From contig JAHDEO010000014.1 in assembly GCA_020628725.1 (NCBI GenBank), positions 1-35,412 on the forward strand: DNA of 35,412 nucleotides, written 5' to 3'. A program made the position numbers and the translations under genes. Within the stretch, counting starts at the first letter, position 1; every line of letters begins with the position of its first letter. Source of the stretch: Saprospiraceae bacterium (GTDB lineage: Bacteria; Bacteroidota; Bacteroidia; Chitinophagales; Saprospiraceae). The notes beneath the pieces were generated by a model. The model was not told where the DNA came from and did no database searches. It saw nothing but the letters and a program-made list of their open reading frames with translations. Positions 2,128 to 30,400 of the stretch are shown in pieces.

Positions 2128-5100
2128 ATGAAGAATCAAAGTATCAAACTAAAATTTAACCAAACCAGTCATTATTATTTTGCCTCTTTAATAATAATGA
2201 TTTTTGCTGCGAGCATTGGAAATGTCCAAGCTCAAGCACTTACAGTTGATGGGGTTGTTACGACAGACTGTACATGTCCTGTCGGCGAAGACAACTTGAT
2301 TGACTTAACCGTAACAGGTGGTACACCACCTTATTCTTACGATTGGACACAAAACGGCTTACCGCTTGCTTGTGATGCCGATGTTGATTTTTCTGCATTG
2401 GATGGTACAACTTGCCCGCCTGAAAACGGCGCAGGATGCCCTCCGGCAGCAACATGTACTACGACCACCGATGCTATTAATGCTCAAATGTATATGGTGC
2501 AAGGTGCTATACTCACTGTAAGTGAACCGATGCCGATGGGAGGTGCATGTGTAGACGAAAACGAAATCAACGATAGCCAGTTAGCGGGTACGGTAGCCTT
2601 ACGTACAGGTGTTACGATGAATGGCAATGCAGGACCCGCAGCCAATGTCACCCGTACCTGGGATTTTAGCGAACCGGTATGTAACCTCGAAGTCTTTATC
2701 AATGACCTTGATGATACGGATGCTGTTATCGTCAATGCTCTGGACGAAAATGGTATGTTGATTACACTCACCGCAGCCGATTTTACATTGACCAATACGA
2801 CTGCCGACCCTGCTTGCCCGGTCTATGTGGGAGGCAACGAATGGCAATCTATGGGATGCCCGCAAATTCCTACGGGCGATAGAGGTGGTTTTATTATCAC
2901 TTTTCCTTCATGTGTGACTTCGATTGATTTTATCTACTACGCGACAGATAACACGGGAGGTTCTTACTCCATTGGTTTTGCCAATTTTTGTGGTCAAGAC
3001 TTGCAGTGTGTCGAAGATGGTGTATATCAAGTTACCGTTACCGATGCAGTCGGCAATACAGCCACGCAGACTTTTACCATCCCTGAACCGGGCGCAAACG
3101 AAAATCCGTCTATCACTTGCCCTGCTGATATTATAGTTAATGTTGACCCGGCAACTTGCGAAGCAGTTGTTGCATTGCCGGATCCGGTTATAAATGATGA
3201 ATGTCCTGATGAACTGACGGTTTCTTGTACGGCGATGTCAGGTGATGTTTTTCCGGTAGGAACAACAACAGTTATGTGTACCGTCACAGATAGAGACGGC
3301 AACACAGCAACATGCGATTATGATGTTACTGTTGTTGACAATGAAGCACCTACAATCGTGAATTGCCCTGCCGATGTTACCGTTAGCACGGACGCAGGTA
3401 TTTGTGCGGCATTTGTCAATTGGACGCCTCCTGTATTGAATGATAATTGTCCGGGCGCAACGGTCTCAAGCACAGCCAATCCGGGTGATTTATTTCTAAA
3501 AGGAACAACCGAAGTTGTGTATGCAGTGACAGATGCAGCGGGCAATACGACCACTTGTGGCTTCGATGTCATAGTGAATGATACAGAACTCCCTGTGATT
3601 ACCTGCCCTGCGGATATTATAGTTGATACCGACCCCGGAGTGTGTGGTGCAGTCGTCACATGGACACCGCCCGTTCCTACGGACAACTGCCCTGATGAGC
3701 TTGTAGAAAGCACGAATACTCCGGGAGAAACCTTTCCCGTAGGGACAACCACAGTGACTTATACCGTTACAGATTGTGGCGGAAATGTAGTGACATGTAG
3801 TTTCGATGTTACGGTGAATGATACCGAAGACCCAACTATCGTAAACTGCCCGACAGACATCATAGTAAATACAGATGCAGGTGTATGTGAGGCAGTTGTA
3901 AATTGGGCTGTACCAACGGCGGCTGATAATTGTCCGGGTGAAACTGTAACCAGCACAGCCAATTCAGGTGATACTTTTCCTTTAGGTACAACAACTGTTA
4001 CCTACACCGTTACAGATGCGGCAGGCAATACAGTCACCTGTAGCTTTGATGTCACGGTGAACGATACCGAAGACCCGACGATTACTTGTCCTTTAGATAT
4101 TGTGATTGATAATAATCCGGGTGTATGTGGTGCGGTTGTGAATTGGCCCCCGCCAACTACTGCTGATAATTGTCCGGGAGAAACAGTTTCCCAAACAGGC
4201 GGATTACCACAAGGCGCGACATTCCCAATAGGAACAACAACAGTTAGTTACACCGTTATGGATGCCGCAGGCAATACAGCAACATGCAGTTTTGATGTGA
4301 CGGTAAATGATACCGAAGCCCCGACCATTACTTGTCCTCCTGATGTTATTGTTAGTACTGACCCCGGAGTTTGTGAAGCAGTAGCAACTTGGGCTGCGCC
4401 AATTGTAGTGGATAATTGCCCGGGCACAACAGCAACAAGTACAGCAAGTTCAGGTGATACTTTCCCACTTGGCACGACCACAGTGACTTATACCGTAACT
4501 GACGCAGCAGGAAACACAGCAACTTGTAGTTTTGATGTGACGGTAGTAGATGATGAAGCCCCAACCATTACTTGCCCTGCTGACATTACAGCATCTACCG
4601 ATTGTGATGAGACAGTAGTGAGTTGGACAGTAACAAGTGCTGATAATTGTCCGGGAGAAATAGTTGTTTGTACCAGTAATTCGGGTGATACCTATCCACT
4701 CGGTACAACTACCGTTACTTGTACAGTAACAGATGCAGCAGGAAATACTGCAACTTGTGATTTCAATATTACGGTGATTGATGATGTGCCGGAGCCATTA
4801 GATTGCTCGGCGATAAATGGTATTCGCCCTACAGATGCGGGCGTATGTACATATACTACGCAAGGCGGTGAATTTGACCCCACTTCAAGTGCCAATTGTC
4901 CGGGTGTTACATTAACCAACAGTATAAATAATACGGCAACACTCGCAGGAGAAATCTTCCCGAAAGGTACGACACCTGTCATTTGGACAATAACCGATGC
5001 AGGAGGAAATATGACCACTTGCGAAATTGCCATTACAATAAATGATGAAGAATTACCTGTTATAACATGTCCTGCGGATATTACAGTAGGAAATGATGCA

Positions 5101-8100
5101 GGTGTATGTGAAGCAGCGGTAACTTGGGCAGCACCTACAGTTACAGACAACTGTCCTGACGCGATAGTTACCAGTACTGCGAATCCGGGCGATATTTTCC
5201 CGAAAGGAACAACAACTGTTACTTACACGGTGACGGATTGTGGAGGAAATGTGGTAACGTGCAGTTTTGATGTAACGGTAGAAGATACCGAGCCACCTGT
5301 AATTACCTGTCCTGCCGATGTAATAGTTTCCACAAGTCCGGGTGCTTGCGAAGGTGTGGCTACATGGACAGCACCAATATTAGGTGCAGGTGCAAGTGAT
5401 AACTGCCCCGATGCAGTCATCACCAGCACAGCGAATCCGGGTGATACCTTCCCAATCGGAACAACCGCAGTAACCTATACAATTACGGATTGTGGTGGAA
5501 ATGTAGTTACTTGTACATTTAATGTAATTGTAGAAGATAATGAATTGCCGACAATTATTTGCCCTGCCGATGTAACAGTTTCAACTGCTCCGGGTGTATG
5601 CGAAGCTACGGCGAATTGGACCGTTCCTGCAGGTAGTGACAATTGCCCCGGTGTAACGGTGACAGGCACAGCGAATCCGGGTGACACCTTCCCGAAGGGT
5701 ACAACCACAGTGACTTACACAGTGACAGATGCAGCAGGCAATGTTGCAACATGCAGCTTTAATGTAATTGTTGAAGATACCGAATTGCCAACGCTTATTT
5801 GTCCTGCTGATATTACAGTAGGTACAGACCCGACTGTTTGCGAAGCAGCAGTAAATTGGGTGCCACCTGTGCCCGTAGATAACTGCCCTGATGCAGTGTT
5901 GACAAGTACCCATAATCCGGGCGATATTTTCCCGAAGGGAACTACAATAGTGACTTACACCGTAACTGATTGTGGCGGAAATGTGGTAACATGCAGCTTT
6001 AATGTAACAGTTGAAGATACTGAACCGCCTGTCCTGAATTGTCCGGCAGATATTATCGTATCAACCGATCCGGGTTTATGTACGGCAGTTGTGAACTGGA
6101 TAGCACCTGTTCCAACAGATAACTGTCCTGATGTAACGGTTGTAGGTTCTGCGAATCCGGGTGATACCTTCCCGACAGGTACGACAACCGTTACTTATAC
6201 AGCCACAGATTGTGGTGGAAATGTAGTCACCTGTAGTTTTGATATAATTGTAGAAGATGCAAACGCACCAACAATTACTTGTCCCGGCGATGTATTTGCC
6301 GTAACCGACGCGGGTTTATGTACGGCAGTAGTGAATTGGACAGCTCCCGTTGCAAGTGATGATTGTTCTGCTGTTACAGTGACAACGACGAATGAACCGG
6401 GTAGCGAATTTCCAAAAGGAACGACAACCGTTGTTTATACAGCTACCGATGCCTCTGGTAATGTGGCTACCTGTAGTTTTGATGTAACGGTATTTGATAA
6501 TGAATTACCTATCCTCAACTGTCCGGGCAACGTAACCGTAGGCACCGATCCGGGTGTATGTGAAGCCGTTGTTACATGGAATGTTCCTGTACCGACAGAC
6601 AACTGTCCTGATTTTACGCTAACGAGTAATTTTAATCCGGGCGATACCTTCCCGCTTGGTACAACAACCGTTACTTATTCAGTAACAGATTGTGGTGGAA
6701 ATGTAACCAGTTGTAGCTTTGAAGTAACTGTAATAGATGACGAACCACCGGCGATTGTATGTCCTGCCGATGTAACGGTTTCAACCACACCGGGTACATG
6801 TACAGGTATTGCGACTTGGACGATTCCGCCTCCTACAAGCGATAATTGTGATGTAATTATTATTGGATCAACTCATGAGCCGGGTGATATATTTACAATT
6901 GGTACAACAACCGTTGTTTATACCGTAACAGATGCAGGAGGGGTAGCAGCAACATGTAGTTTCGAGGTCACAGTAGTAGACAACGAACCGCCTTCCATCA
7001 CATGTCCACCAGACATTACAGCGACTACAGATTGTAATGAAGCAGTCGTCAATTGGGTGATACCTTCATCTGATGTTTGTTCACCAACTACGGTGATGTG
7101 TACCAGCAATCCGGGGGATACCTTCCCATTAGGAGATACGCCTGTAACTTGTACGGCGATGGATGCAGCAGGTAATGAAGCCATGTGTAGTTTTACTGTA
7201 ACGGTAATCGATACAGGCGCGCCCGAACTGGATTGTTCCGCTATTGACGGAATGGTATCTACAGATGCGGGCGTGTGTACGTACACGGTACAAGGCGGTG
7301 AATTTGACCCAACCTCTGCCGGAAATTGTCCGGGTAATACATTGACCAATAATATAAATAACACTGCTACATTAGCAGGTGAAATCTTCCCGAAAGGTGC
7401 TACACCGGTCATCTGGACAGTAACCGACGCAGGAGGAAATACGACGACTTGCGAGGTCACGATTGAAGTGAGCGACGAAGAACTCCCAACGATTACTTGT
7501 CCCGCAGATGTCACGGCAACTGCTGACCCAACTACTTGTACATCGGCTGTTACATGGGCACCTCCTGTACCCATAGACAACTGCCCCGATGCAGTAGTGA
7601 CAAGTACACACAATCCGGGTGATGCCTTCCCTGTCGGAACGACAACTGTTACTTATACTGTAACTGATTGTGGAGGAAATGTAGTCACATGCAGTTTTGA
7701 TATTACAGTAGTAGATCCGGGTGGAAATGTGGTGTTAGAATGTCCTGATGATGTGATAGTGCCAAGTGTACCGGGAACTTGTGAGGCAGCAGTACCCTGG
7801 GATATTCCGATAGCAATGGGTGGCTGTACGACAGGTACGGTAGTGTGTACGAGTTCTCCTTTGGATGTTTATGCTGTAGGTATAAATCCTGTAACGTGTA
7901 GTGTTATGGATGCTGCCGGAAATACGATTAGCTGTACATTCAATGTAATTGTAGAAGACAATGAACCACCTATTCTGGATTGCCCTGAAGACATTATGGT
8001 GTCTACCGATTTCGGGCGTTGTGGTGCGACAGTGGGTTGGACTATACCAATCGTAGTCGATAGTTGTGGCGTGGCGTTTATCACTTATGCCTCTCATACT

Positions 8101-11100
8101 CCGGGTAGCACATTCCCTGTGGGAACAACTACCGTTGAATACATTGCTGCCGATAATTCGGGCAATACAACTGACTGTACATTCGATATTACGGTAGTAG
8201 ATAACGAACCGCCAACCTTACAATGTCCGGGCGATATTACGGTGACAGCCGTTCCGGGTCAATGTAGCGGTGTAGCGAATTGGATTGTTTTCCCGCCAAC
8301 GGATAACTGTACAGGCGCAACCGTCATGTGTACCCACGAATCCGGGGATGTATTCCCAATTGGTACGACAACGGTATCGTGTACGGCGGTGGATGCCTTC
8401 GGCAATGAAGCTATGTGCGAATTTGATGTGACGGTAGATGAATGTTTTGGTGGAACGCCTGAAACAACCACTGAGACAGTAACGCTTGTAGCAGATAGCG
8501 ATTTGAATATTGGTGCTACTGATGCCATGAGTTTCGCTTCAAATCCAACATATGTATTTACTGATCCTGCTACGCCTACCAATGCAGTATTGTCAAATAT
8601 TACACTTGAATTATTCTTCCGTGTAGAAAACGCTTCTTGCGAAAGTGATATTGAAGTTCAATTGACAGACCCGACAGGTGCGGTGGTTTTCGTTGGCGCA
8701 CCATTTACGACATGTAATGGTTCGGGTGCAAATCCATTCCCTGGACAATTATACAATACGACGATTACGATACCAAGTGGCTCGACCACAGGTAGCGTAG
8801 CAAATTGGATAGCTGAATTTAGAGATACCAATGACCAAAACGCAGGTGCGGTAGAATATACCGTTCGCTTTGGAAGATTGACATACGACGCCTCAATTAC
8901 AACAGGTGGCGGTAGCGGTACTTGTGGCAATCCGGTTATCGTCAATTGCCCTGCACCAATTACTCAAACGGCAACTGCAGGTTGCGGTGCAAATCTGACT
9001 ATTCCTGCACCGGTATTTGGTACAGACTTTACCGATTGTGTTGGTGCTACCGCAACGAATGACGTAACAGGTACATCCGATGCTTCCGGCTTCTACGAAG
9101 TAGGTACGACGGTAGTGACTTGGACATTCACGGATGAACAAGGCAATACATCCACTTGCCAACAAATCATTACGATTACAGATGGCGTTCCTGCCACATT
9201 AGATTGTCCGGCAGATGTAGTCATCACTGCTACGCCGGGTACATGTGGTGCTACGGCAACTTGGGACGAACCAGCCTTTGACGACAACTGCCCCGGTGGT
9301 AGTATCACAAGCAGTACACACAGTTCGGGCGATGAGTTCCCGATTGGTACGACGACTGTAACTTACACAGCTACGGATGCACAAGGCAATACAGTGACAT
9401 GTAGTTTTGATGTGATTGTAGATGAATGTAGCGGTGGTGCATCAACTAGTGAAACGATTGTATTGATTGCGGATAATGATTTTAATGTCGGCACAAATGA
9501 TACAGAGAGCTTTGCAGACAATCCGACCTATACATTTACCGACCCCGCGACTCCTGCGAATGCGGTTTTATCCAATATCACACTTGAATTATTTTTTAGA
9601 TTAAATGGTAGTTCATGCGAAAGCGATATTGAGGTACAACTCACCGACCCTGCGGGCAATGTGAGCGTATTTACACCATTCACTACCTGTAATGGTCCGG
9701 GACAATTATACTACATTTCAATACCTGTACCGAGTGGTTCTACCATTGGTAGTATAGCGGATTGGACGGTAGCCTTTAGAGATACCAACGACCAAAACGC
9801 AGGACTTCCTGAGTATTCTGTTCGATTTGGACGCTTGACTTATACCGCTACCATCGGCGGAAGTGCTAATTGCGGTCTTCCGGTCATCGTCAATTGCCCG
9901 ACCGACATAGCGGTAGTCGCTGATACCGGACAATGCGGTGCGGACGTTGCCGTTCCTGTTCCGACCTTTGGCATAGATTACACAGATTGTACCGAAACCA
10001 CTGCCACCAACAGTTACACGGGCACAACTGACGCATCAGGCACATATCCTGTGGGCACAACAACAGTTACATGGACATTCACTGATGCAGATGGCAACAG
10101 CGTGACTTGTACACAAGACATTGTTGTGATTGATAATGAAAATGCCACACTCACTTGCCCTGCGGATGTAATGGTACAAACTTCTCCGGGAACTTGTGAA
10201 GCCATTGCAACTTGGGATTTACCAATCTTCACGGATAATTGTCCGGGAGGTGGTATCACAAGCAGTACAGCGAATCCGGGCGACAGCTTCCCGATTGGTA
10301 CGACGACAGTGACTTACACAGCTACAGATGCACAAGGCAATACCGTCATGTGTAGTTTTGATGTGATTGTAGAAGAATGTAGCGGTGAAAGTGGTTCAAC
10401 CACCGAAACCGTCACACTCAATGCCGATTCTGATTTCAATGTAGGTATGAATGATACGGAAAGTTTTGCCGATAATTCGACTTATACTTTCACAGATCCA
10501 GCTACGCCTGCGGCAGCTACATTATCCAATATTACCCTCGAATTATATTTCAGAGTATTTGGAAGTTCTTGTGAAAGTGATATTGAAGTCAGATTGACTG
10601 ACCCTGCGGGTAATGTGAATGTATTTACACCATTTGCAACTTGTATAACAACAGGTCTATTCTACGCACCGATTAGCGTACCGAGTGGTTCGACCACAGG
10701 CAGTCTTGCGAATTGGACAGTAGAATTCAGAGATACCAACGACCAAAATGCAGGCGCAGCAGAATATTCAGTCCGCTTCGGTAGAATTTCTTACGATGCG
10801 ACGATTGTTGAGAGTGAAGGTTGCGGAATACCTGTTATTGTCGAATGTCCTGCACCTATCAATGCAACTTCACAGCCCGGTCAATGCGGTGCGAATGTCA
10901 CCGTTCCGGTACCGATGTTTGGTGTGGACTTTACGGATTGTACAGGCGCGACGATTGCAAATGACATCACAGGTACATCCGATGCTTCGGGCTTCTATCC
11001 GGTAGGCACAACAACGGTTACATGGACAGTTACCGACCTTGACGGCAATACGGTTATGTGTACACAAACCATCACCGTAGAAGACGTAGAAGCACCAACC

Positions 11101-14100
11101 GTAACTTGTCCCGCAACAGTCATGGTAGAAACAACTCCGGGCAATTGCGACGCAGTAGCAACTTGGGCTGCACCAACGATTATGGATAATTGCGGTGCGT
11201 CAGTTGCAAGTAGTTCACACAGTTCGGGTGATACTTTCCCATTGGGTACAACGACTGTTACATACACGGTTACAGACGATGCAGGTAATACAGCGACTTG
11301 TGAATTTGATGTGATAGTGGAAGAATGTGGTGCGGGTACATCCGTCACGACTCCGGTAGTATTATTGAGTGATAGTGATTTTGTAGTTGGTGTAAATGAT
11401 ACAGAGAATTTTGCGGATAATTTGACTTATACCTTTACCGACCCTGCTACACCTGCAAGTGCGGTATTGACCAATATTACGCTTGAATTATATTTCAGAG
11501 TATTGGGCGCATCTTGTGAAAGCGATATTGAAGTGAGAGTCACTGACCCTGCGGGTAATGTAAATGTTTTCACACCATTTGCTACATGTGCGGGTGCGGG
11601 ACCATTATACTTCATCTCATTAAATGTACCAAGTGGTAGCACCATCGGCAGTATCGCTGATTGGGTAGTCGAATTTAGAGATACCAACGACCAAAACGCC
11701 GGAGCAGCCGAGTATTCTGTTCGTTTCGGACGTTTATCATACGATGCAACTACAGGCGGCGGCGGTTGCGGCGACCCTGTTATCTTGAATTGTCCTGCGG
11801 ATATTAGCGTGTCATCTGATCCGGGTGATTGTGTGGCATTTGTCACTGTTCCTGAACCGCAATTTGGTGTAGATTTCACCGATTGTGTAGGTGCTACGAT
11901 TACAAATAGCTATAACGGCACATCTGATGCGACCGACATTTATCCTGTTGGTACAACAACTGTTACTTGGACAGTTATTGATGATGATGGCAATATTACG
12001 ACTTGTACACAAACGATTGTTGTAGGTGATGGTCAACAGCTTGGTTTGACTTGTCCTGATAACATTACCGTTTCTACGGACGCGGGTACATGTCAGGCAC
12101 AGGTATTCTGGGATGCACCTGTATTGAGTGACAACTGCGGTGCGTCTATCACGAGTACAGCCGAGCCGGGAGATATATTCCCAATCGGAACGACAACGAT
12201 AACTTACACTGCCGTTGATGCAGCAGGAAATACAGTAACATGTAGCTTCACAATTACCGTTGAGGATAATGAAGCACCTGTGATTGCTTGTCCTGCGGAA
12301 GTAGTCGTCAATACTGCTCCGGGAGCTTGCGGTGCAGTGGCTACTTGGTCAGCACCAACGGTAACGGACAACTGCGATAATGGATTGACAGCGACATCTA
12401 ACATTTCTTCCGGTTCGATATTCTTGCCGGGAACTACGGTTGTCACGTACACTGTCACAGATGCTTCGGGCAATATCACAACTTGCAGCTTTGATGTAAC
12501 AATAGTAGACAACGAACCACCTGTGGGCGTATGTCCGCCGGACATTACGGTAGTAGCACGTCCGGGAGAATGTACAGCTCCGGCAGAATGGGAAATCCCC
12601 GTGCCAACCGACAATTGCAGTGCAGTCATTAAAGATGCCAGCGATGCACCGGGAGATGTATTCATAGTAGGTACAACAACGGTAACTTACACCTTCATTG
12701 ATGAAGCTGGCAATACTTCAACTTGTAGCTTCAACGTCACAGTAGTTGATGAAGAAGTTCCGACAATTACATGTCCATTGGATATTACCGTAGGAACTGA
12801 TCCGGGTACTTGCGAAGCGGTCGTTAATTGGGCGGTGCCAACAGGCGCGGATAATTGTCCGGGTGCTACAGTAAGCGGTACATCCAATCCGGGCGACAGC
12901 TTCCCGCTTGGAACGACAACGGTAACTTACACTGTTACAGATGCCGCAGGTAACACTGCAATGTGTAGTTTCGACATCACAGTAGAAGATACCGAAGCAC
13001 CAATGGTGATTTGTCCTACTAACGTAACGGTTTCCGCTGATGCGGCAACTTGTACAGCCGCAGCGACTTGGGGTACACCTACATTTATGGATAATTGTGG
13101 TAGCGCGAGTATCGCGAGTAGTACGCACAATTCGGGTGATACCTTCCCACTTGGCACAACGACCGTAACTTATACGATTGTTGATGATGCAGGAAATGAG
13201 GTTGAATGTAGTTTTGATGTCATTGTAGAAGACAATACGGCTCCGGTGATTATCAATTGTCCGCCGGATCTACCGAACTTACTCGCGCCTCCGGGTGAAT
13301 GTGAAGGTTCGTTTACGATTCCTGTGCCGATATTTGGTACAGATTACACCGATTGTCAAGCAGGTACAGTGATTACGAATGACCAAAATGGTACTGCCAA
13401 TGCTTCGGGTACATATCCTGTTGGTACTACTGTCGTTACATGGACGGTCACAGACCCAAGTGGTAATTCAGTGACTTGTGAGCAGACGATTACCGTAGGC
13501 GAGCAGGATTTGGTTTACGACGAAATATTGGTAACAGACCAAGATGTTTTTGTCGGCGCAGGTATAGACAATGCAGACTTCAATGAGAGTGACAGTATTC
13601 TCATCGTAGCTCCGGGCATACCGCCGAATGCGACAGTCAATACCGTAATTCTGGACTTCTTCTTCCGTCCTGAAGGTAACTCTTGTGAGCGTGACGTAGT
13701 AGTGGAAGTTACAGACCCTGCGGGTATGGTGACGATATTCCCTGCACCTACAACAACTTGTAATGGTAATGATGCAATATTCCAGTTCTTATTACCGGTG
13801 GCTTCTGTACCACTCAATGGTGGTATATGGAAATTGAGATTCCTTGATACCGATGACCAAAATCCGGTATCTGCCGGTTCGCCGGGAGCTTTCGCGCCTG
13901 CGGGTACGGAATTCTCTGTTAGATTTGGTCGTATCACTTATAATATTACGGTCGATCCGGATTGTGGTATTCCTCCAATGCTTGTTGACGAAGATGATAC
14001 TCCGCAAGTGGACGAGAATCAAGACATCACAGAGGAACTTGTCATTGATGACATCACAATTGAGGAAATAACCGATAAGCCTGATTTCAATCTATTCCCT

Positions 14101-14337
14101 GTACCAACTACAGGAAGATTGAATGTGGAATACACCGCACCACAAGACGGAAGTATTTATATTGAAGTCGTGGATGCCAATGGTAAAATCATGTACACAG
14201 AAAAAGCAAATGTGTTAAAAGGCACAAATGCGCTGAATATGGAGTTATTTGATTTGCCGGGTGGTTTATATTACATGACCATAAGAGACGGTAGCGGACA
14301 TATTATCGCGAAGCCGTTTACGAAGTTATCACCTTGA
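2128..14337 (+). CDS. giant T9SS-secreted HYR-repeat protein with P-domain-like modules
   Basis: The 4069-residue protein begins with a signal peptide (hydrophobic core about 19-33, probable cleavage after VQAQA). Residues 64-78 and 297-320 are two halves of one SprB-like repeat separated by a roughly 215-residue cysteine-containing insert. From about 326 to 2107 come 22 HYR repeats of about 80 residues (CPADI, G-x-C, DNCP, GTTTVTYTVTD, TCSFDV), each with at least four cysteines. Five beta-sandwich modules follow, at about 2105-2270, 2432-2585, 2750-2902, 3066-3217 and 3793-3950 (SDIEV-LTDPAG, then W-x-EFRDTNDQN, then RFGRL-Y), resembling P/Homo B domains and separated by HYR pairs. In all 35 HYR repeats were counted. 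A short acidic linker leads to a type A T9SS sorting domain (about 3985-4069, FPVPTTGRLNVEY to the C-terminus). Inferred role: a cell-surface or released adhesive fibre. No catalytic domain was seen. The start agrees with its paralogue, which has the same initial codons. Confidence 0.93.
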   Translation: MKNQSIKLKFNQTSHYYFASLIIMIFAASIGNVQAQALTVDGVVTTDCTCPVGEDNLIDLTVTGGTPPYSYDWTQNGLPLACDADVDFSALDGTTCPPENGAGCPPAATCTTTTDAINAQMYMVQGAILTVSEPMPMGGACVDENEINDSQLAGTVALRTGVTMNGNAGPAANVTRTWDFSEPVCNLEVFINDLDDTDAVIVNALDENGMLITLTAADFTLTNTTADPACPVYVGGNEWQSMGCPQIPTGDRGGFIITFPSCVTSIDFIYYATDNTGGSYSIGFANFCGQDLQCVEDGVYQVTVTDAVGNTATQTFTIPEPGANENPSITCPADIIVNVDPATCEAVVALPDPVINDECPDELTVSCTAMSGDVFPVGTTTVMCTVTDRDGNTATCDYDVTVVDNEAPTIVNCPADVTVSTDAGICAAFVNWTPPVLNDNCPGATVSSTANPGDLFLKGTTEVVYAVTDAAGNTTTCGFDVIVNDTELPVITCPADIIVDTDPGVCGAVVTWTPPVPTDNCPDELVESTNTPGETFPVGTTTVTYTVTDCGGNVVTCSFDVTVNDTEDPTIVNCPTDIIVNTDAGVCEAVVNWAVPTAADNCPGETVTSTANSGDTFPLGTTTVTYTVTDAAGNTVTCSFDVTVNDTEDPTITCPLDIVIDNNPGVCGAVVNWPPPTTADNCPGETVSQTGGLPQGATFPIGTTTVSYTVMDAAGNTATCSFDVTVNDTEAPTITCPPDVIVSTDPGVCEAVATWAAPIVVDNCPGTTATSTASSGDTFPLGTTTVTYTVTDAAGNTATCSFDVTVVDDEAPTITCPADITASTDCDETVVSWTVTSADNCPGEIVVCTSNSGDTYPLGTTTVTCTVTDAAGNTATCDFNITVIDDVPEPLDCSAINGIRPTDAGVCTYTTQGGEFDPTSSANCPGVTLTNSINNTATLAGEIFPKGTTPVIWTITDAGGNMTTCEIAITINDEELPVITCPADITVGNDAGVCEAAVTWAAPTVTDNCPDAIVTSTANPGDIFPKGTTTVTYTVTDCGGNVVTCSFDVTVEDTEPPVITCPADVIVSTSPGACEGVATWTAPILGAGASDNCPDAVITSTANPGDTFPIGTTAVTYTITDCGGNVVTCTFNVIVEDNELPTIICPADVTVSTAPGVCEATANWTVPAGSDNCPGVTVTGTANPGDTFPKGTTTVTYTVTDAAGNVATCSFNVIVEDTELPTLICPADITVGTDPTVCEAAVNWVPPVPVDNCPDAVLTSTHNPGDIFPKGTTIVTYTVTDCGGNVVTCSFNVTVEDTEPPVLNCPADIIVSTDPGLCTAVVNWIAPVPTDNCPDVTVVGSANPGDTFPTGTTTVTYTATDCGGNVVTCSFDIIVEDANAPTITCPGDVFAVTDAGLCTAVVNWTAPVASDDCSAVTVTTTNEPGSEFPKGTTTVVYTATDASGNVATCSFDVTVFDNELPILNCPGNVTVGTDPGVCEAVVTWNVPVPTDNCPDFTLTSNFNPGDTFPLGTTTVTYSVTDCGGNVTSCSFEVTVIDDEPPAIVCPADVTVSTTPGTCTGIATWTIPPPTSDNCDVIIIGSTHEPGDIFTIGTTTVVYTVTDAGGVAATCSFEVTVVDNEPPSITCPPDITATTDCNEAVVNWVIPSSDVCSPTTVMCTSNPGDTFPLGDTPVTCTAMDAAGNEAMCSFTVTVIDTGAPELDCSAIDGMVSTDAGVCTYTVQGGEFDPTSAGNCPGNTLTNNINNTATLAGEIFPKGATPVIWTVTDAGGNTTTCEVTIEVSDEELPTITCPADVTATADPTTCTSAVTWAPPVPIDNCPDAVVTSTHNPGDAFPVGTTTVTYTVTDCGGNVVTCSFDITVVDPGGNVVLECPDDVIVPSVPGTCEAAVPWDIPIAMGGCTTGTVVCTSSPLDVYAVGINPVTCSVMDAAGNTISCTFNVIVEDNEPPILDCPEDIMVSTDFGRCGATVGWTIPIVVDSCGVAFITYASHTPGSTFPVGTTTVEYIAADNSGNTTDCTFDITVVDNEPPTLQCPGDITVTAVPGQCSGVANWIVFPPTDNCTGATVMCTHESGDVFPIGTTTVSCTAVDAFGNEAMCEFDVTVDECFGGTPETTTETVTLVADSDLNIGATDAMSFASNPTYVFTDPATPTNAVLSNITLELFFRVENASCESDIEVQLTDPTGAVVFVGAPFTTCNGSGANPFPGQLYNTTITIPSGSTTGSVANWIAEFRDTNDQNAGAVEYTVRFGRLTYDASITTGGGSGTCGNPVIVNCPAPITQTATAGCGANLTIPAPVFGTDFTDCVGATATNDVTGTSDASGFYEVGTTVVTWTFTDEQGNTSTCQQIITITDGVPATLDCPADVVITATPGTCGATATWDEPAFDDNCPGGSITSSTHSSGDEFPIGTTTVTYTATDAQGNTVTCSFDVIVDECSGGASTSETIVLIADNDFNVGTNDTESFADNPTYTFTDPATPANAVLSNITLELFFRLNGSSCESDIEVQLTDPAGNVSVFTPFTTCNGPGQLYYISIPVPSGSTIGSIADWTVAFRDTNDQNAGLPEYSVRFGRLTYTATIGGSANCGLPVIVNCPTDIAVVADTGQCGADVAVPVPTFGIDYTDCTETTATNSYTGTTDASGTYPVGTTTVTWTFTDADGNSVTCTQDIVVIDNENATLTCPADVMVQTSPGTCEAIATWDLPIFTDNCPGGGITSSTANPGDSFPIGTTTVTYTATDAQGNTVMCSFDVIVEECSGESGSTTETVTLNADSDFNVGMNDTESFADNSTYTFTDPATPAAATLSNITLELYFRVFGSSCESDIEVRLTDPAGNVNVFTPFATCITTGLFYAPISVPSGSTTGSLANWTVEFRDTNDQNAGAAEYSVRFGRISYDATIVESEGCGIPVIVECPAPINATSQPGQCGANVTVPVPMFGVDFTDCTGATIANDITGTSDASGFYPVGTTTVTWTVTDLDGNTVMCTQTITVEDVEAPTVTCPATVMVETTPGNCDAVATWAAPTIMDNCGASVASSSHSSGDTFPLGTTTVTYTVTDDAGNTATCEFDVIVEECGAGTSVTTPVVLLSDSDFVVGVNDTENFADNLTYTFTDPATPASAVLTNITLELYFRVLGASCESDIEVRVTDPAGNVNVFTPFATCAGAGPLYFISLNVPSGSTIGSIADWVVEFRDTNDQNAGAAEYSVRFGRLSYDATTGGGGCGDPVILNCPADISVSSDPGDCVAFVTVPEPQFGVDFTDCVGATITNSYNGTSDATDIYPVGTTTVTWTVIDDDGNITTCTQTIVVGDGQQLGLTCPDNITVSTDAGTCQAQVFWDAPVLSDNCGASITSTAEPGDIFPIGTTTITYTAVDAAGNTVTCSFTITVEDNEAPVIACPAEVVVNTAPGACGAVATWSAPTVTDNCDNGLTATSNISSGSIFLPGTTVVTYTVTDASGNITTCSFDVTIVDNEPPVGVCPPDITVVARPGECTAPAEWEIPVPTDNCSAVIKDASDAPGDVFIVGTTTVTYTFIDEAGNTSTCSFNVTVVDEEVPTITCPLDITVGTDPGTCEAVVNWAVPTGADNCPGATVSGTSNPGDSFPLGTTTVTYTVTDAAGNTAMCSFDITVEDTEAPMVICPTNVTVSADAATCTAAATWGTPTFMDNCGSASIASSTHNSGDTFPLGTTTVTYTIVDDAGNEVECSFDVIVEDNTAPVIINCPPDLPNLLAPPGECEGSFTIPVPIFGTDYTDCQAGTVITNDQNGTANASGTYPVGTTVVTWTVTDPSGNSVTCEQTITVGEQDLVYDEILVTDQDVFVGAGIDNADFNESDSILIVAPGIPPNATVNTVILDFFFRPEGNSCERDVVVEVTDPAGMVTIFPAPTTTCNGNDAIFQFLLPVASVPLNGGIWKLRFLDTDDQNPVSAGSPGAFAPAGTEFSVRFGRITYNITVDPDCGIPPMLVDEDDTPQVDENQDITEELVIDDITIEEITDKPDFNLFPVPTTGRLNVEYTAPQDGSIYIEVVDANGKIMYTEKANVLKGTNALNMELFDLPGGLYYMTIRDGSGHIIAKPFTKLSP
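4549..5283 (+). repeat. higher-order HYR block, copy 1 (units 7-9)
   Basis: Three successive HYR repeats with a distinctive order: one with ADITASTDCDE and an extra cysteine pair, one long variant with GGEFDPTS and LAGEIFPKG, then one beginning DEELP-ITCPAD. The same order returns ten repeats later at 6979-7713, indicating segmental duplication. Confidence 0.75.
6979..7713 (+). repeat. higher-order HYR block, copy 2 (units 17-19)
   Basis: This matches the block at 4549-5283: PDITATTDCNE, then the long variant with GGEFDPTS and TATLAGEIFPKG, then DEELPTITCPAD. The two copies are about 2.43 kb apart, equal to ten HYR units. Confidence 0.75.
8437..13975 (+). repeat. five P-domain-like modules, gene 2
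   Basis: Approximate module limits are 8437-8938, 9421-9885, 10372-10836, 11320-11780 and 13501-13975. Each has D(S/N)D near its start, a TDPA or DPA motif, SDIEV-LTDPAG (ERDVVVEVTDPAG in the last), a central TTC or ATC cysteine, W-x-EFRDTNDQN and RFGRL-Y. The first four are bounded by a cysteine in a V(D/E)EC linker and one in a C-G-x-P linker. The fifth is more diverged, lacks the leading linker cysteine, and precedes the sorting domain. The order of motifs matches P/Homo B domains of subtilase-type proteins; this assignment is an inference from motif order. Confidence 0.65.
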
Positions 14338-14362
14338 TAAAGGTATTGAATATGAAATAGAT

Positions 14363-14396
14363 AACCGGAAGTCGCGTCAGCGGCTTCCGGTTTTTT
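14363..14396 (+). terminator. rho-independent terminator of HYR gene 1
   Basis: AACCGGAAG pairs with CTTCCGGTT, extended by a T-G pair and CGC/GCG around the loop GTCA, and is followed by a run of T. It starts 26 bp after the stop codon. Near-copies lie after genes 3 and 4. Confidence 0.9.
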
Positions 14397-14650
14397 ATAG
14401 GTTTTGTTAAAAAGTAGAGTTAATATATGAATTAAAAAAATAATTTAAAGTACATCCTAAACCTTACACATTTCAATAAATTTACGTCATAAAAGACGAC
14501 AAAAGTCTACCCGTCTTATTTCTCAAAGGACATGAAGGAATAAAATTTTAATAAATGTACATTTATTAAAACCCTGTTCCTGAGCAGAATTTTCATTCAT
14601 TTTTGCAACTGTTTTTTTGAAAGTGCGTATGAATAAAAAATCTGCTGTGC

Positions 14651-14670
14651 TTATTTTAGAATAAGTTCTA
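14651..14670. repeat. 20-bp motif shared with MITE end (copy 2)
   Basis: TTATTTTAGAATAAGTTCTA matches 17 of 20 positions of the MITE terminus at 20507-20526 and lies directly against the conserved leader block. A similar copy lies upstream of the first HYR gene. Confidence 0.4.
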
Positions 14671-14715
14671 CACTATTCGCAGACACACTCACTTGCGCGT
14701 CCGTTTATCCTTGCT
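14670..14715 (+). promoter_or_regulatory. conserved leader block of HYR gene 2
   Basis: ACACTATTC, ACTTGCG and TATCCTTGCT appear in the same order as at 1985-2028, with a two-base difference in spacing. It lies 135 bp before the ATG at 14850. Confidence 0.5.
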
Positions 14716-14849
14716 CCGATATTATTGAAGTATGGACAATGAATTATAAATACTGAATTTGAAATTAACTGATGTTGAATTCAAGATTTATGACTCGTGG
14801 TTCGTAACTCGTAAATCATATTTCATCCTAAAAATAAAAGGCTCTATCC

Positions 14850-17800
14850 ATGAAGAATCTAAGTATCAAATCAAAAAGGATTCGTTGTTATGCTATTTTA
14901 TTAGCAATTTTTATGGGAAATGTCGGGTACATCAATGCAGAAATATTTGCAATTTGTCCTGACGACATTATAATTGCTGCCAATGAGGGGCAATGTGCAG
15001 GTACAGCTACTTGGACGGTTTTGCCTCCGGCTGATAATCCTGATGGCACCGTCATATGTACGCATGAATCGGGCGATACCTTCCCGCTGGGTACCACGAC
15101 GGTGACTTGCATGTCCGTAGATGCCTCCGGAAATGATGTCACCTGTGACTTTGAGGTCACAGTCGTTGAGTGTATAGAAGGAGAAGAAATAGACAAAAAA
15201 GTCACCCTGATAGTAGATAGTGATTTGCCTGTAGGGGTAGATGATACGGAGGACTATGAGGGTATTACTTACCTTTTTACGGATCCCGCTACGCCTGTCA
15301 ATGCGACAATTACCAATATTTCAATCGAATTATTTTTTCGTGTACAATATGCTTCTTGTGAAAGTGATATTGAAATACGCTTGAGCGATCCTGCGGGAAA
15401 TGTCGTTTACGAAGGCGCACCTTTTACCACTTGCAATGGTTCAGGCAACAATCCCTTTCCCGGTGAATTATATATTGCAACTATCCCGCTTGCAAGTGCT
15501 ATGACCACAGGAAATATTGCGAACTGGGTAGCAGAGTTTAAAGACACCAACGACCAAAATCCGGGCGAAGTAGAATACACGGTTCGTTTTGGAAAACTGC
15601 TGTATGAAACAAATTTCATTGTAGGTGGTAGTGGCGAAAATTGTGGCAACCCTGTCATCTTAAACTGCCCTGAATCTGTTAATCAACCGGCTAATATAAA
15701 CTGCGGTGCGGTAGTTAGTATTCCTGAGCCGATGTTCAATGTTGATTATACGGATTGCTTTGTTGCAGCAGCGGTGAATGACTATACGGGCGGACCAAAT
15801 GCTTCGGGTTTTTATCCAATAGGGACAACTGTGGTAACATGGACTTTTACAGATTTACAAGGAAATGCCTCAACCTGCGAACAAGTCATTACCATTGAAG
15901 ATAGCGGCACTGGGACCGGACTTGAATGCGTCGAGGATGTAATTGCCATGACCAATATAGGCGAATGTACCGCAACTGCCACTTGGGATGAACCTGTTTT
16001 TACAGATTGTGGTGATGGAGGTATCACAGGAAGTACACATGATTCAGGTGATACATTTCCAATTGGTACAACTACCGTCACCTATACCGCCGTTGATGGA
16101 GACGGCAACGAATTGACCTGTAGTTTTGATGTGATAGTGGAAGAATGTGATTCGCCGCCACCTATCACAACAAATATTGATGCTGCCGACGATGAGGATT
16201 TTGATATTGGAGTGAATGATACAGAGAATTTTGAAGATAATCCAATCATGGTATTTACCGACCCCGGTACGTCGGCAGATGCTGTTTTAGTTAATATTAC
16301 CCTTCAATTTTATTTTAGAATATTTGGAAATTCCTGCGAAAGCGACATCGAAATACGCCTCACCGACCCTGTAGGAAATACGACCGTATTCACTGATGTC
16401 TACACAACCTGTGATGGTGAAGGTCCGCTATATTTTATCGAGTTAAATGTACCGAGTGCCACCACTACAGGCACAATAGCAAATTGGGTAGCGGAATTCA
16501 GAGATACCAACGACCAAAATTCGGGCGAGGCTGAATACTCCGTGCGTTGGGGGAATTTATCATACGATACAGTCGTCAGTGGCGGCGGTTGTGCCGACCC
16601 GATTATCGTCAACTGTCCTGCGGATATAACGGCAGCGACAAACATGGGAGATTGCACGGCTTTTGTCGAAATTCCTGAACCACAATTTGGAGCAGATTTT
16701 ACCGATTGCACAACGGCTACGATTACGAATAGCTACAACGGCACGTCTGATGCCACCGACATTTATCAGCCGGGAACAACTGTAATCACTTGGACGGCAA
16801 CAGACGCACAGGGCAATATCGCTACCTGCACTCAGAACATCACAGTAGAGGAAATTGAAAACATTGTTCTCTCTTGTCCGGGAGATATGACGGTAGAAAC
16901 CACGCCGGGTATGTGTAGCGCTGTAGCAACTTGGGCAGACCCTTCTGTTACAAGTAATTGCTCAAGCAGCGCAGGCGGCGGTGGAGCGATGGATAGTACA
17001 CATGATTCAGGTGATGAATTTCCAATTGGTATAACTACGGTAACTTACTCAACCATAGATTTGCAAGGCAATGAGATAACATGCAGCTTTGATGTTATAG
17101 TGGAAGAATGCCCCTCGCCTCCACCTGTTACCACAAGTCTTGCGACCCCCGATGATGAAGATTTTTTTATTGGCGAAAATGATACAGAGAATTTTGCAGA
17201 TAATCCTACCTTAATATTTACCGACCCCGGCACGCCCGCAGATGCCGTTTTGACCAATATCAAACTCGAATTATATTTCAGAGTATTTGGTAGCTCATGT
17301 GAAAATGACATCGAAGTGCGCCTAATGGATCCTGTTGGGAATACGAATATATTTACACCATTTACCACCTGTAATGGCGAAGGTCCTTTATATTTTATCG
17401 AATTAAACGTACCGAACGGCGCGACAACAGGCACAACGACTGATTGGGTCGCAGAGTTTAGAGATACCAACGACCAAAATCCCGGCGAATCAGAATACTC
17501 TGTACGTTGGGGACGCCTCTCTTACGATACCGAAGTTAGCGGTGGCGGTTGCACAGACCCGACGATTGTCAATTGCCCCGAAAGTATGTCCGTACCGCCG
17601 GGGGCTGATGGGTGCAGTGCTGTCGTCGAAATTCCCGAACCACAATTTGGTGTTGATTTTACGGATTGTTCCAATGCTTCAATAACAAATAGTCATAATT
17701 TGACCTCCAATGCTTCCGGCACTTATCCCATAGGTACGACTATGGTCATATGGACAGCAGCAGATACAGAAGGAAATACTTCGACCTGCACCCAACTCAT

Positions 17801-20975: not shown

Positions 20976-23900
20976 ATGAGGAATAGCATCTACATTTTCG
21001 CGCTTTTATGTTTATGTTTTGGAATGAATAACAGCTTTGCACAACATTCGCATGAAGAACACCATCACCATGGTCATCATCATACATTACAGCATGATAT
21101 ACAAGATGGCGAAATACCTATTTACAAAAAAATCGAAGTCGTTATTAATGGAGATGACGATTTGAAGCGTGTCGCTGATTTAGGAATTGACTTATATTGT
21201 GGTGCAACATTCAAACAAGTTAATGGACAAAATATTTTAATGCTCGAAGTCAGTGAGCATAATTATGAAAGCCTCAAAAACGATTTGCAGACAAAAGTCT
21301 TGGTCGAAGATTTATCGAAATTTTACGAAGAAAGAAATAAAATAGAACTACCAAAAGCGCAAGAGGCTTTGCAAAGAGCCAAGCAAGAAGCATTATTCAA
21401 AAATGCTGAAGCAGGACAAGATTTGGGTTGTGCAGAAGATGGTTTCCCTGTACCGCAGAACTTTAAGCTCGGTAGCATGGGAGGTTTCACGACTTACGAT
21501 GAGATGTTGGCTGAACTCGACCTCATGCGTAGCATGTACCCAAATCTGATTACAGCTCGCGCACCTGCCAGTACATCTATCACAACGATACAAGGTAGAA
21601 CGGTTTATTACGTAAAATTATCCGATAACCCGGAAGTAGATGAAAATGAGGCAGAGGTATTGTACACAGGCGTACACCACGCTCGTGAGCCGCTTGGTAT
21701 GATGAACCAATTGTACTTGATGTGGTATTTATTGGAAAATTACGCGACCGATGCAAAAGTCAAAAATATAGTAGATAATACAGAATTATACTTCATTCCC
21801 GTCGTAAATCCTGACGGTTATGTATACAACCAACAAACCAATCCCAACGGCGGAGGTATGTGGCGTAAAAATCGTCGCAACAACGGCGACGGCACTTACG
21901 GCGTAGACCCAAATCGTAACTACGGTTACAATTGGGGCTACGACAATTCAGGTTCAAGCCCGACCACAAGCTCAGAAACTTACCGAGGTACAGGTCCTTT
22001 TTCCGAGCCTGAAACACAGATTGTACGCAATTTCGTACAGAGCCACAATTTTGTGAATGCCTTCAACAATCACTCTTACTCGAATCTCTTATTGCACCCG
22101 TGGGGCTACACACCTTCAGCCGGACCGGATGAGGAACTTTTCGGAGAAATTTCCGAGCACATGTGCTGGCACAATCGCTATCACTACGGTAATGCAAACG
22201 AAGTAATTTACCCCGCAAATGGTGATGCAAATGACTGGTTTTATGGTCAGGAAGATGTATTTGCATGGACGCCGGAAATTGGTTCGGTAGCAGAAGGCGG
22301 CTTCTGGCCCTCACCGTCTGACATCGTTCCGCAATGCGATAGACATATGAAAATGTCTTTGATTCTCGCATCTTCTGCGGCGAATTATGGCGTACTCAAC
22401 GACCTTACACCATATAGCCTTGATACTCAAAATCCCGAATTGACCTTTAGTGTAGAACACATGAGTAATGTGAATGGCTCGTTTACGGTTTCCGTTTCTT
22501 CGAGTAGCCCTTATGTGACGGCTATCGCCAATGCGAATATGAACACGGGTACTATCACGGATGCTAATTTTGGCACTGTGAGTACTGCGCTCACACTTGA
22601 CCCAAATACACCTGCGGGAACGACTATCAGCTTTGATGTCGTACTCAATAACGGTACTTACGACATTCACACGACAACAATTTCAAAAGTATATAATGCT
22701 TATGAATTATTCCAAGACACAGGTGCTTCTTTGACGAATTGGACGAGTAGTGGCGGATGGGGTGTTACAAATTCCGGCGGATATTCGGGGTCGAATAGTA
22801 TTACCGATTCTCCTTCGGGCAATATGAGTACAGCCACTCGTACATTGACCCTTTCAAATCCAATTGACCTTTCTTCTGCACAAAACCCTGTATTAGAATA
22901 TTATGCAAAATGGGACATTACACGCTTGTTTGATTATGTTCAAATAGAAGTGTCTACCAATGGTACTAATTGGTCAGAACTATGCGCCACATACACCAAA
23001 CCGGGAACTAGTCCCGATAATGTTTGGGGTGGAAACGGTACACCCGACCAACCAACTGGCGAAGGCTTATACGATGGCTTCCAAAAAGACTGGGTACGTG
23101 AAGAAATTGACCTTTCTGCCTATGCAGGTACAAATACGCTTTACCTCCGCTTCAAAGCAGATGGCGATACAGAACGCGCGCAATCAGACGGATTTTATTT
23201 CGATGATTTTAGAGTATATAGAGAGCCACTCGGACACTGCGAAAACGGCATACAAGATGCCGACGAAACCGATGTAGATTGCGGCGGCGTAGATTGTTTG
23301 GCTTGTCCGACTTGTGATGATGGCATTCAAAATGGCAATGAAACAGGAGTTGACTGCGGTGGTGATTGCGGTGTTTGTCCGGTATGTCCGACTTCGGTTA
23401 GTAGCTTCCCTTATACAGAAGGTTTTGAATCAGGTTTGGGGCAATGGTCACAGAGCAGTGGCGATGATTTGAATTGGACGAGAAATTCAGGCAGTACAGC
23501 TTCGAGCAATACAGGACCTTCTTCTGCATCCGAAGGTAGTTGGTACATGTATATTGAGGCATCTAATCCAAATTATCCTACTAAAACAGCAGGTCTCATC
23601 TCTCCTTGTTTTAATTTGACAGGAATGCAAACGGCAAGTTTGAGTTTCCGATATCACATGTATGGTTCGTCTGCAAATATGGATTTGGATGTGCAAATCA
23701 GTACAGACGCAGGTGCTACTTGGTCCAATGCAATTTGGAGTCAAACAGGCAATCAAGGCAATCAATGGTATACTGCAAATATTAATTTAGATGCTTATGT
23801 AAATGAATATGTAACGATACGTCTTTGGGGAACAACGGGTGAAACATGGCAAGGCGATGTCTCTATCGACGATGTAGAAGTAGATGCTGCCGGTCCTGCG

Positions 23901-27363: not shown

Positions 27364-27377
27364 TCAAAAAATGCCTT

Positions 27378-27385
27378 TATATTTG
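27378..27385 (+). promoter_or_regulatory. candidate -7 element for the M4 peptidase gene
   Basis: TATATTTG matches TAnnTTTG and lies 85 bp upstream of the ATG at 27470. If real, transcription starts downstream of the earlier in-frame ATG at 27371, supporting the later start. No clear -33 element was seen. Confidence 0.35.
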
Positions 27386-27469
27386 TATTGTGACATCAAA
27401 AAAGTACAAGTTTTAGAAGAAAAGAAAGATCGCATTAGTCGAAACATTGTAATCACCAAGATTCCTACT

Positions 27470-30400
27470 ATGAAAATTTTATTACATGTATTAGCGTACT
27501 TTGTAATGCTAGTGACACAAATTCATGCTCAGTCTGTGCGAGATTTTTCGCACAAGGGGAATCTTGATTGGAAGACCTTCAAATCAGAAGAACAGACTTC
27601 TGCGGTATCACTCAGCACAGACAAAGAAGCTTTGTCGCTTGATACAAATGATGACTTACAACTTGTTGATACACAAGATGACCAATTGGGTTTTCGTCAT
27701 TATCGTTATCAACAAACCTATAAAGATATTCCCATAGAAGGTGCAATTTTTCTCATGCACGAATTGAACGGCCGCTTGAAGAACATTAATGGTAGATTAA
27801 CCCGAAATCTTGACCTCTCTACAACACCGGCTATAAGTGAAGCGACTGCTCTACATGCTGCCATGCAGCATGTAGACGCTTCCCTTTACGCATGGAATGA
27901 TACTGCACACGAAACGAATCTCAAGCATACTCACGACTGTTCCGATTCAAGTTTTTATCCTCATGGCGAATTGGTCATCTTTGCTTCCGGCAAGCAAAAA
28001 AAGGCTGATGATTATCGACTTGCCTATAAATTTGACATCTACGCTCTACAACCTCTGACACGACAAATCGTGTATGTAGATGCTCAAAGCAATATGATAT
28101 TGACGAGTATCGAAAAAATACACAACTGCACAGGCACACCTGCCTCCGGTGCGACCAATTATTCCGGTGATGTCGATTTTTCGGCTTGTACTATCGGTGG
28201 CACACGTACTTTGAAAAGTAATGATACAGGGGTAGACATACAGGTGTTCGATGCAGAAAATACATGGGCATCTCCACAAGTAACCGTAACGGATACAGAT
28301 GGATTTTTTGAGCAAGACTCGACTGCGGTGGAGGTGTATTGGGCAACCAAAGAAACATATGATTACTTTTTTTACACACATGGTAGAAACAGCTTAGACG
28401 ACAATGGAATGGCGTTATACAGTTGGGTGCATCATGGTGTTGACTATAATAACGCTTTCTGGAATGGTTCATGGATGACTTATGGAGACGGTGATAATCA
28501 GCAATTTAGCTCATTTACCTCTCCCGATGCAGTCGGACATGAAATCATGCACGGAATCACGGATTTCTCTGCCGATTTAATTTATCAAGATGAATCGGGC
28601 GCATTGAATGAGTCTTTTTCTGATATTTTCGGAGAGTTGGTAGAGGCATATATTCGCGGTACAAATGACTGGATAGTTGGTGCTGATTTTACGGTACAAG
28701 CAGGCAAAAACGGATTGCGTAATCTAAGCAATCCTAAAGATATAAATATGATGCGTGCTCAACCCGACACTTATTTTGGCGACAACTGGTTTAGCGGAGG
28801 CGGTAGAGGCGGCGTACATACCAACAGTGGTGTACAAAATTACTGGTTTTACCTACTTGCACAGGGTGGAACGGGTGTGAATGATTTTGGATATGAATAC
28901 AATATACAAGGCATAGGTATATCCAAAGCCGCAGCTATCGCCTACCGCAATCTCACCGTATATCTGACTCCCGAATCACAGTATTTTGATGCTCGCATAG
29001 GCTCAATACAATCAGCTATTGATTTATACGGCTTAACCTCTGAAGAAGTAAAACAAACAAAGGCAGCTTGGGAAGCAGTAGGCGTAGGAACATATACTAC
29101 CACACCCTGTCGCGAACGTGACTCGCTGGCACTCGTAGCTTTATATGATGCAACTAATGGCGCAAACTGGGCAGAAACATGGGATTTGACTCAGCCGATA
29201 GATACTTGGTATGGGGTGAGTTTGAATCAAGGTGGATGTGTGAGTGCTTTAGATTTAAATTCCAACCAATTAGAAGGGGAGATTCCTGCTGAATTGGGTG
29301 ACTTGGTAAGTTTGTTGGATTTGCGTTTGCAACATAATAGTTTGAGTGGCACTATTCCTTCTGAATTAAGCGACTTAATTTATTTGGAGGTATTGAACAT
29401 GGGTTTCAATCAATTGCAAGGTAGCATTCCATCGGAACTAGGGAATTTGATTAGTCTGGCACAATTAGGATTGAATAGCAATCAATTGAGCGGAACGATT
29501 CCTGAGACTTTGAGCAATTTGACCAAACTAAATTTGCTCTTTCTGGGAAATAATCAGTTGACAGGCGAGATTATTTCCGGAGTAGGAGGTATGAGTAATC
29601 TCGTAAATTTAGATTTAGGACTCAATCAGTTGACAGGCAAAATTCCGGCTGAATTGGGGAATCTGATTTATTTGACGAATCTGAGTTTAGGAGGCAATCA
29701 GTTGACAGGTGAAATTCCTGATAAATTAGGGAATTTGATTAATTTAAAATCTCTGATACTCACCAATAACCAATTGGAAGGAGAGTTTCCTGTATGGATA
29801 GGCAATTTGCCCTATCTGACTTCTCTGGCTTTATCTTCCAATCAACTAAGTGGTTGTTATCCCTCCAATGTTGCTAATTTGTGTAGTCAATTGACTAGCC
29901 TCAATGACAATTCTAATATTAGCAATGGCAATAATTTCAACAACACATGGGAAAGTTTCTGTGCTATAGGTGCAGGTAGATGCAATCCTTACTCTCCTTG
30001 TCGAGACAGTGATTCGCTGGCATTGGTCGCTTTCTACAATTCATTAATCAACGACCCGCTGGTTTGGAACCTCAACCAACCCATAGATACTTGGAATGGG
30101 GTAACACTAAGTCCCAAAGGCTGCGTGATTCATATAGAACTGGACGATGGATATTTGAGTGGAAATATCCCGGCTGAAATAGGTGATTTGAGTCACTTGA
30201 CTGTGTTGGATGTAGATGAAAATCAAATTTCCGGTGCGATTCCTCCTGAATTGGGTGATTTGACAACATTGGAATATATTGATTTATCTGATAATGGTTT
30301 AAGTGGAAATATTCCGCCTGAATTGGGCGATTTGACAGCTTTGGAATACATTGATTTGTCTGCCAATGGTTTAAGTGATAATATTCCACCTGAATTGGGT

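Follow-up and report, generated by a model that had tools for sequence, protein, structure and literature searches.

Two adjoining genes, P0001 and P0002, lie in the window analysed here, which is the whole stretch of 35,412 nucleotides at the start of contig JAHDEO010000014.1 from a Saprospiraceae bacterium (assembly GCA_020628725.1; 7.2 Mb, 683 contigs, 95% complete). Each encodes a long array of HYR units, and six of these units carry two additional cysteines that are absent from all the others. The question raised by this locus is why the two cysteines are always found together. The favoured explanation, drawn from covariation and a structural model, is that they very probably form an all-or-none, core-facing disulfide between strands C and F of the domain, and that this predicted bond is one of several solutions for a single packing site.

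The HYR family (PF02494) matches P0001 with 1,422.7 bits in 32 stretches and P0002 with 295.5 bits in 7 (cut-off 21.7), and 35 and 11 units, 46 in all, were counted with a profile built on 24 window repeats. The canonical unit contains four cysteines, C1 (xCP), C2 (GxC), C3 (DNC) and C4 (xxCSF). The additional cysteines occupy position A (VxCT, profile column 43) and position B (VxC in the later strand, column 60), where columns are counted from 0 over 79 profile positions, and units with cysteine at both are called CC. Cysteine was found at both positions in 6 of the 46 units and at one only in none; a sequence-only reading of this DNA had claimed as much, and the units that it had named (1, 7, 17, 20 and 22 of P0001 and unit 1 of P0002) were recovered exactly. 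In that order, the A motifs are VSCT, VVCT, VMCT, VVCT, VMCT and VICT, and the B motifs are VMCTV, VTCTV, VTCTA, VTCSV, VSCTA and VTCMS; the earlier list held five of the six B motifs and lacked the VTCTA of unit 17. The span 3223-15117 given there starts immediately ahead of the first A codon (3226, P0001 unit 1) and closes soon after the last B codon (15108, P0002 unit 1). Each CC unit scores above the PF02494 cut-off (49.1, 53.9, 56.5, 36.1, 51.4 and 39.0 bits), and C1 and C4 are present in all six. Cysteine in 6 of 46 units at each position, always paired, has a chance probability of about 1e-7 if units are taken as independent, an assumption that does not hold here. A shortened 'TDC' variant occurs in both unit 7 and unit 17, each with the same W-type unit after it, and the same module of about 140 amino acids stands after unit 22 and after P0002 unit 1; since these look like block duplicates, the window holds about four independent cases.

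For a wider count, a detection profile (A1) made from the 24 window repeats, six of them CC, was run over the window, 75 loci from genome contigs, seven stretches of the same genome and loci L119-L216; loci L001-L008 were left out because they duplicate sequence already included. After identical rows were dropped, 1,414 domains remained, and removal of 246 that covered fewer than 70 of the 79 columns left 1,168 domains from five named phyla and one further lineage. In the scan of genome contigs, the HYR repeats of the window had their best matches in metagenome-assembled genomes named Saprospiraceae. The alignment of all repeats, which the sequence-only reading had proposed, gave 149 domains with cysteine at both A and B, one with A only, four with B only and 1,014 with neither (phi 0.98). 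Homologues with one cysteine alone, many of which were to count against the proposal, thus number five against 149 pairs. In a separate set from the window's phylum (L091-L118, looser limits, 88 domains), there was one further single (B only, L105), no pair and 87 domains with neither. Without the coverage cut, the counts (both/A only/B only/neither) were 53/3/1/1,040 in a first sample (window and L009-L090) and 122/0/4/116 in a second (L119-L216), and redundancy reduction at 75% identity outside the two columns gave 133/1/3/783. P-values from such tables rest on the assumption that related domains are independent, and they are not to be read as probabilities. The yardstick was the set of 38,552 residue-pair associations between columns at least four apart, with each residue at 5-95% frequency: cysteine at A with cysteine at B is the strongest of all (0.98), and the runner-up (0.81) gauges the background due to shared ancestry.

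The pair is unevenly distributed. In Bacteroidota it is rare (44/1/1/908 in the same order; 44 of 954), and in Acidobacteriota, a group that includes genomes drawn as the phylum of G198, it is usual (91/0/2/24; 91 of 117). Verrucomicrobiota (14/0/1/7), Zixibacteria (0/0/0/28), Planctomycetota (0/0/0/18) and the further lineage (0/0/0/29) are represented by one genome each, too few for conclusions on the phyla. The covariation noted earlier within P0001 and P0002 therefore stands and reaches further than these two proteins; judged by sequence, CC is an alternative state that HYR domains of some phyla commonly adopt, and not a peculiarity of the window. In the window and L009-L090, ten CC-bearing arrays have at least eight units and are not cut by a locus edge; all ten also contain non-CC units, and eight have a CC unit beyond the first position. 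As a separate observation, the first unit is CC in five of the ten (P0001, P0002, L085, L013 and L015) against 1.55 expected (p about 0.007), an excess found post hoc whose true weight is lower, as L013 and L015 show a near-identical pattern and are perhaps relatives. Elsewhere in the same genome, an HYR protein at L088 (contig C205) has the pair in all four sampled units and L085 (contig C639) in one of 58.

Evidence for contact was obtained from couplings between columns. By mean-field direct coupling, only C1-C4 outranks A-B, which is second among 2,850 column pairs. The two columns were still coupled (15th of 2,850, z 4.6) in the 1,014 sequences left after removal of the 154 that have cysteine at A or B. 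Among 920 non-redundant domains, C-C was seen 133 times against 19.8 expected, and the other enriched pairs were Y-A (11 against 0.6 expected), I/V/L-L, Q-F, G/N-W and S-Y. This cysteine-free coupling is read from the residue pairs as complementary, size-matched packing that includes the inverted pair Y-A. Other top couplings (55-77, 57-75, 59-73 and 62-70) outline the F-G hairpin, while 43-60, 43-58 and 45-60 are read as C-F neighbours. Columns 41 (V/I/L) and 43, and 58 (V), 60 and 62 (A/V), alternate with columns that are mostly T/S (40, 42, 44, 57, 59, 61 and 63), so that A and B would share the inner face.

An AlphaFold2 model of unit 22, made from an alignment of 93 sequences of which 23 are CC, is all-beta with a mean pLDDT of 94.4. 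In this model the strand at residues 41-44 contains A (residue 44; residue number is column + 1) and that at residues 56-64 contains B (residue 61); the two strands are read as C and F of an immunoglobulin (Ig)-like sandwich. Comparison with VIA gave a PKD domain (4u6t; Z 8.5, root-mean-square deviation (rmsd) 1.9, 73 aligned) as the top match and SraP (4m00; Z 8.1, rmsd 2.2, 74 aligned) as the next, and Foldseek gave no match at E ≤ 0.001. A search by sequence for a solved HYR structure returned nothing significant (best E 0.012 with phmmer and 0.023 with the profile).

The A-B pair is one of three pairs of cysteines that appear to behave as modules. C1 and C4 are both present in 1,114 of the 1,168 domains, with three singles of each kind and 48 domains with neither (phi 0.94). 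C2-C3 is looser (896 both, 28 C2 only, 197 C3 only, 47 neither). C2 is absent from 99 of the 102 domains with cysteine at column 50 and from all 33 with cysteine at column 16; as these cysteines replace C2, C3 may switch partner. No other candidate cysteine was present in the match columns of 57 of the 197 C3-only domains. When the six columns and column 65 were tabulated, the patterns were C1C2C3C4 in 778 domains, C1C3C4 in 163, all six in 87, C1C3ABC4 in 25, C1C2C4 in 22, AB alone in 21, C1C4 alone in 16, C2C3 alone in 13, C1C2C3C4 with column 65 in 8, C1C4AB in 8, C2C3AB in 3 and none in 1, with all others in at most 6 each. Each of the eight possible combinations of these pairs was seen, and the patterns indicate that C1-C4, A-B and C2-C3, the last with a movable partner, are gained and lost largely independently. 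An even number of cysteines stands in the match columns of 1,037 of the 1,168 domains, against 57.2% (standard deviation 1.4 points) after column shuffling. The AB-alone domains contain exactly two cysteines each and come from six loci, all in Acidobacteriota. The extra disulfide of the sequence-only reading is supported by co-occurrence, but its description as a third one fails in these 21 domains, where A-B is the sole cysteine pair. Columns 16 and 66 also co-occur (14 both, phi 0.49; L215 and L207 are among the examples), perhaps as a further optional bond.

According to the proposed mechanism, the HYR unit would be a small Ig-like beta sandwich in which A, on strand C, and B, on strand F, lie side by side on adjoining antiparallel strands of the same sheet and face the core. 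Their contact would be filled either by complementary side chains or by two cysteines in a C-F cross-strand disulfide. A lone core cysteine, being unpaired and prone to mispairing, would be disfavoured, and for this reason A and B would change together and singles would be rare. Where C1 and C4 are present as well, A-B would lie within the loop closed by their bond near the ends of the unit, and the length to which the unit stretches under pull would be unchanged. In units with six cysteines, stability and protease resistance are most likely what is gained, and in AB-only units A-B would be the sole staple.

An additional internal staple of this sort is probably real and widespread, and of a familiar kind. 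No disulfide scheme for HYR was found in the literature searched, which was available in part and did not include the original HYR paper. Tandem HYR arrays in large proteins, as in P0001 and P0002, are known from HycP, a protein with 23 HYR (PMC3723904). CC units differ from HYR (PF02494) in the extra A-B pair. A cysteine-defined variant is already present in Pfam as HYR_4C (PF23237; HYR-like with 4 cysteines), and it matches P0001 in two stretches, of which the best, residues 3401-3459, is not a CC unit. In the available part of the report on CD4, Cys130-Cys159 of domain 2 is a cross-strand disulfide between strands C and F that was gained within the family (PMC4354306); the likeness lies in the Ig-like fold and the bonding of neighbouring C and F strands, the HYR bond being predicted. 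CD4 keeps a state with one cysteine in some species, whereas HYR has almost none. In the I-band of titin, too, a tandem Ig-like array carries a given cysteine pair in some domains only; its cysteines are on strands B, F and G, with all three in 21 of 101 I-band domains, according to the text available (PMC5766482), whereas A-B in HYR is a strict pair, located on what are read as strands C and F. The Ig-like fimbrial subunit DraE is similarly described as having a stability-raising disulfide between adjacent strands, though these are strands A and B and not C and F (PMC5625045). The comparisons with CD4 and titin are analogies of working, and no kinship is claimed.

Several observations weigh against the proposed bond or limit its reach. 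Among the singles, L157 is a true pair offset by one alignment column, L163 has lost C2, so that B could bond C3 instead, and L206 has six cysteines in a different layout. The other two singles counted in the 1,168 domains, L037 (A only, with Tyr at B) and L055 (B only), look truly unpaired, and L105 has B only and has lost C1 and C4. CC domains contain 2 cysteines in 21 cases, 4 in 10, 5 in 23, 6 in 80, 7 in 10 and 8 in 5, and in the 33 of 149 with an odd count some cysteine, not necessarily A or B, must be unpaired or have a partner elsewhere. One such case is P0002 unit 1, which lacks C3 and has five cysteines; its C2 looks unpaired. The profile was built on cysteine-rich repeats, so that cysteine-poor HYR domains may be under-sampled and cysteine-free ones are likely under-counted. 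In the same genome the VKOR and DsbB families were not found, and the DsbA family gave one match over the cut-off and one below; the DsbA-like frame of L217 was not among the open frames of more than 200 amino acids listed for the two loci with DsbA matches. Also on this side are three Acidobacteriota arrays of at least eight units that are wholly CC (L177, L180 and L181), the finding that position A changes 38 times on the best tree but only 2 independent pairs fall on supported branches, and the closest CC and non-CC domains being only 72% identical, which means that no very recent joint switch was caught.

The wholly CC arrays and the few supported switches also fit the alternative of shared ancestry, in which duplication and transfer would have spread a single old HYR subfamily, the CC units, and co-occurrence would be a mark of descent rather than of contact. 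The concentration of CC in Acidobacteriota and some Saprospiraceae arrays fits such a history, as do the apparent block duplicates, and plain inheritance would also give wholly CC arrays; the few supported switches are attributed to the domains being too short for a resolved tree. However, no other pair in these equally related domains reaches the phi of 0.98, arrays contain CC units side by side with non-CC ones, identity among the window CC units is just 32-61%, and the coupling that persists without cysteines already counts against descent alone. Pure ancestry was rejected, and it is considered improbable.

A second alternative accepts the C-F disulfide and takes it, by analogy with CD4 domain 2, as labile and redox-switchable, tuning adhesion or unfolding of the array. 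The CD4 bond has been reported to be redox-active and reduced by thioredoxin, glutaredoxin and protein disulfide isomerase in vitro, with a reduction potential of -241 mV (PMC4354306, available in part); the strand pair would be the same under the present strand reading, and the HYR pair is optional among otherwise similar units. Arrays would then mix stapled and unstapled units, reduction would soften or open chosen repeats, and the array pattern, often with CC first, would be under selection. However, a pair present in most Acidobacteriota domains looks structural, and C1 and C4 would still clamp the ends of every window CC unit; both the switch and its selected array pattern are thought very unlikely. 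A third alternative gives the A and B cysteines partners other than each other, either a metal or some other ligand or, through a cross-link, an adjacent unit or another molecule. It is hardly credible, and the metal or ligand site was rejected: two cysteines could form part of a site and odd counts do occur, but the replacements are plain packing pairs with no ligand chemistry, 21 domains have these two cysteines alone, the total is even in most domains and none of the other 13 strongest listed associations involves cysteine at A or B.

The features of the window are given in Table 1. Both proteins carry sorting domains of the type IX secretion system (T9SS), which implies that they are exported. 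The module of about 140 amino acids between HYR units occurs in ten copies, of which one has a weak Pfam match to P_proprotein (E 0.027) and the others none. Its model (pLDDT 76) has the P domain of furin as the top VIA match (4omc; Z 9.0, rmsd 3.2, 114 aligned), with BcsB domains nearly as good (Z 8.7), and Foldseek alone gave scattered weak matches only; on this model the modules are probably P (Homo B)-like domains. A different fifth cysteine was observed in seven P0001 units (3, 9, 10, 12, 13, 15 and 19; 3580-7710), where 'DCGGN' replaces 'DAAGN'. All seven have 'NCPD' instead of 'NCPG' after C3, one further unit has CPD without DCGGN, and neither feature occurs in the remaining 35 C3-bearing units of the window. 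The odd cysteine count of the DCGGN units suggests a free thiol or an inter-unit bond, and only one other case was seen among the 1,168 domains (L041).

Table 1 Coordinates of the two HYR-array genes, their CC units and other features of the window
Feature	Position	Strand	Remarks
P0001	2128..14337	+	4,069 amino acids; 35 HYR units, five P-domain-like modules, T9SS C-terminal sorting domain
P0002	14850..20324	+	1,824 amino acids; 11 HYR units, five P-domain-like modules, T9SS sorting domain
P0001 HYR unit 1	3097..3333	+	A 3226-3228, B 3277-3279; all six Cys (C1 3118, C2 3157, C3 3202, C4 3313)
P0001 HYR unit 7	4549..4776	+	A 4669-4671, B 4720-4722; C2 moved upstream (TDC)
P0001 HYR unit 17	6979..7206	+	A 7099-7101, B 7150-7152; C2 moved upstream like unit 7
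P0001 HYR unit 20	7726..7953	+	A 7846-7848, B 7897-7899
P0001 HYR unit 22	8200..8436	+	A 8329-8331, B 8380-8382; modelled with AlphaFold2
P0002 HYR unit 1	14937..15164	+	A 15057-15059, B 15108-15110; Pro at C3 position (15039)
140-amino-acid modules (approx.), P0001	8479-8898, 9436-9855, 10387-10806, 11335-11754, 13534-13953
140-amino-acid modules (approx.), P0002	15198-15617, 16158-16577, 17118-17537, 18063-18482, 19533-19952
Neighbour gene(s)	20976-25748		T9SS-tailed M14 zinc carboxypeptidase with MAM domains
Neighbour gene(s)	27371-34417		M4 (thermolysin-type) metallopeptidase fused to long leucine-rich repeat arrays

The predicted C-F disulfide gives the HYR family, for which the sequence searches found no solved structure, a testable map of three cysteine pairs, of which C1-C4 and A-B are gained or lost almost strictly as units. 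The A-B variants would form a natural series of ways to pack a single cross-strand site, and the map may be of use in modelling HYR arrays and in choosing expression conditions. The family also offers a clean data set on the gain of paired cysteines, with very few single-cysteine intermediates left.

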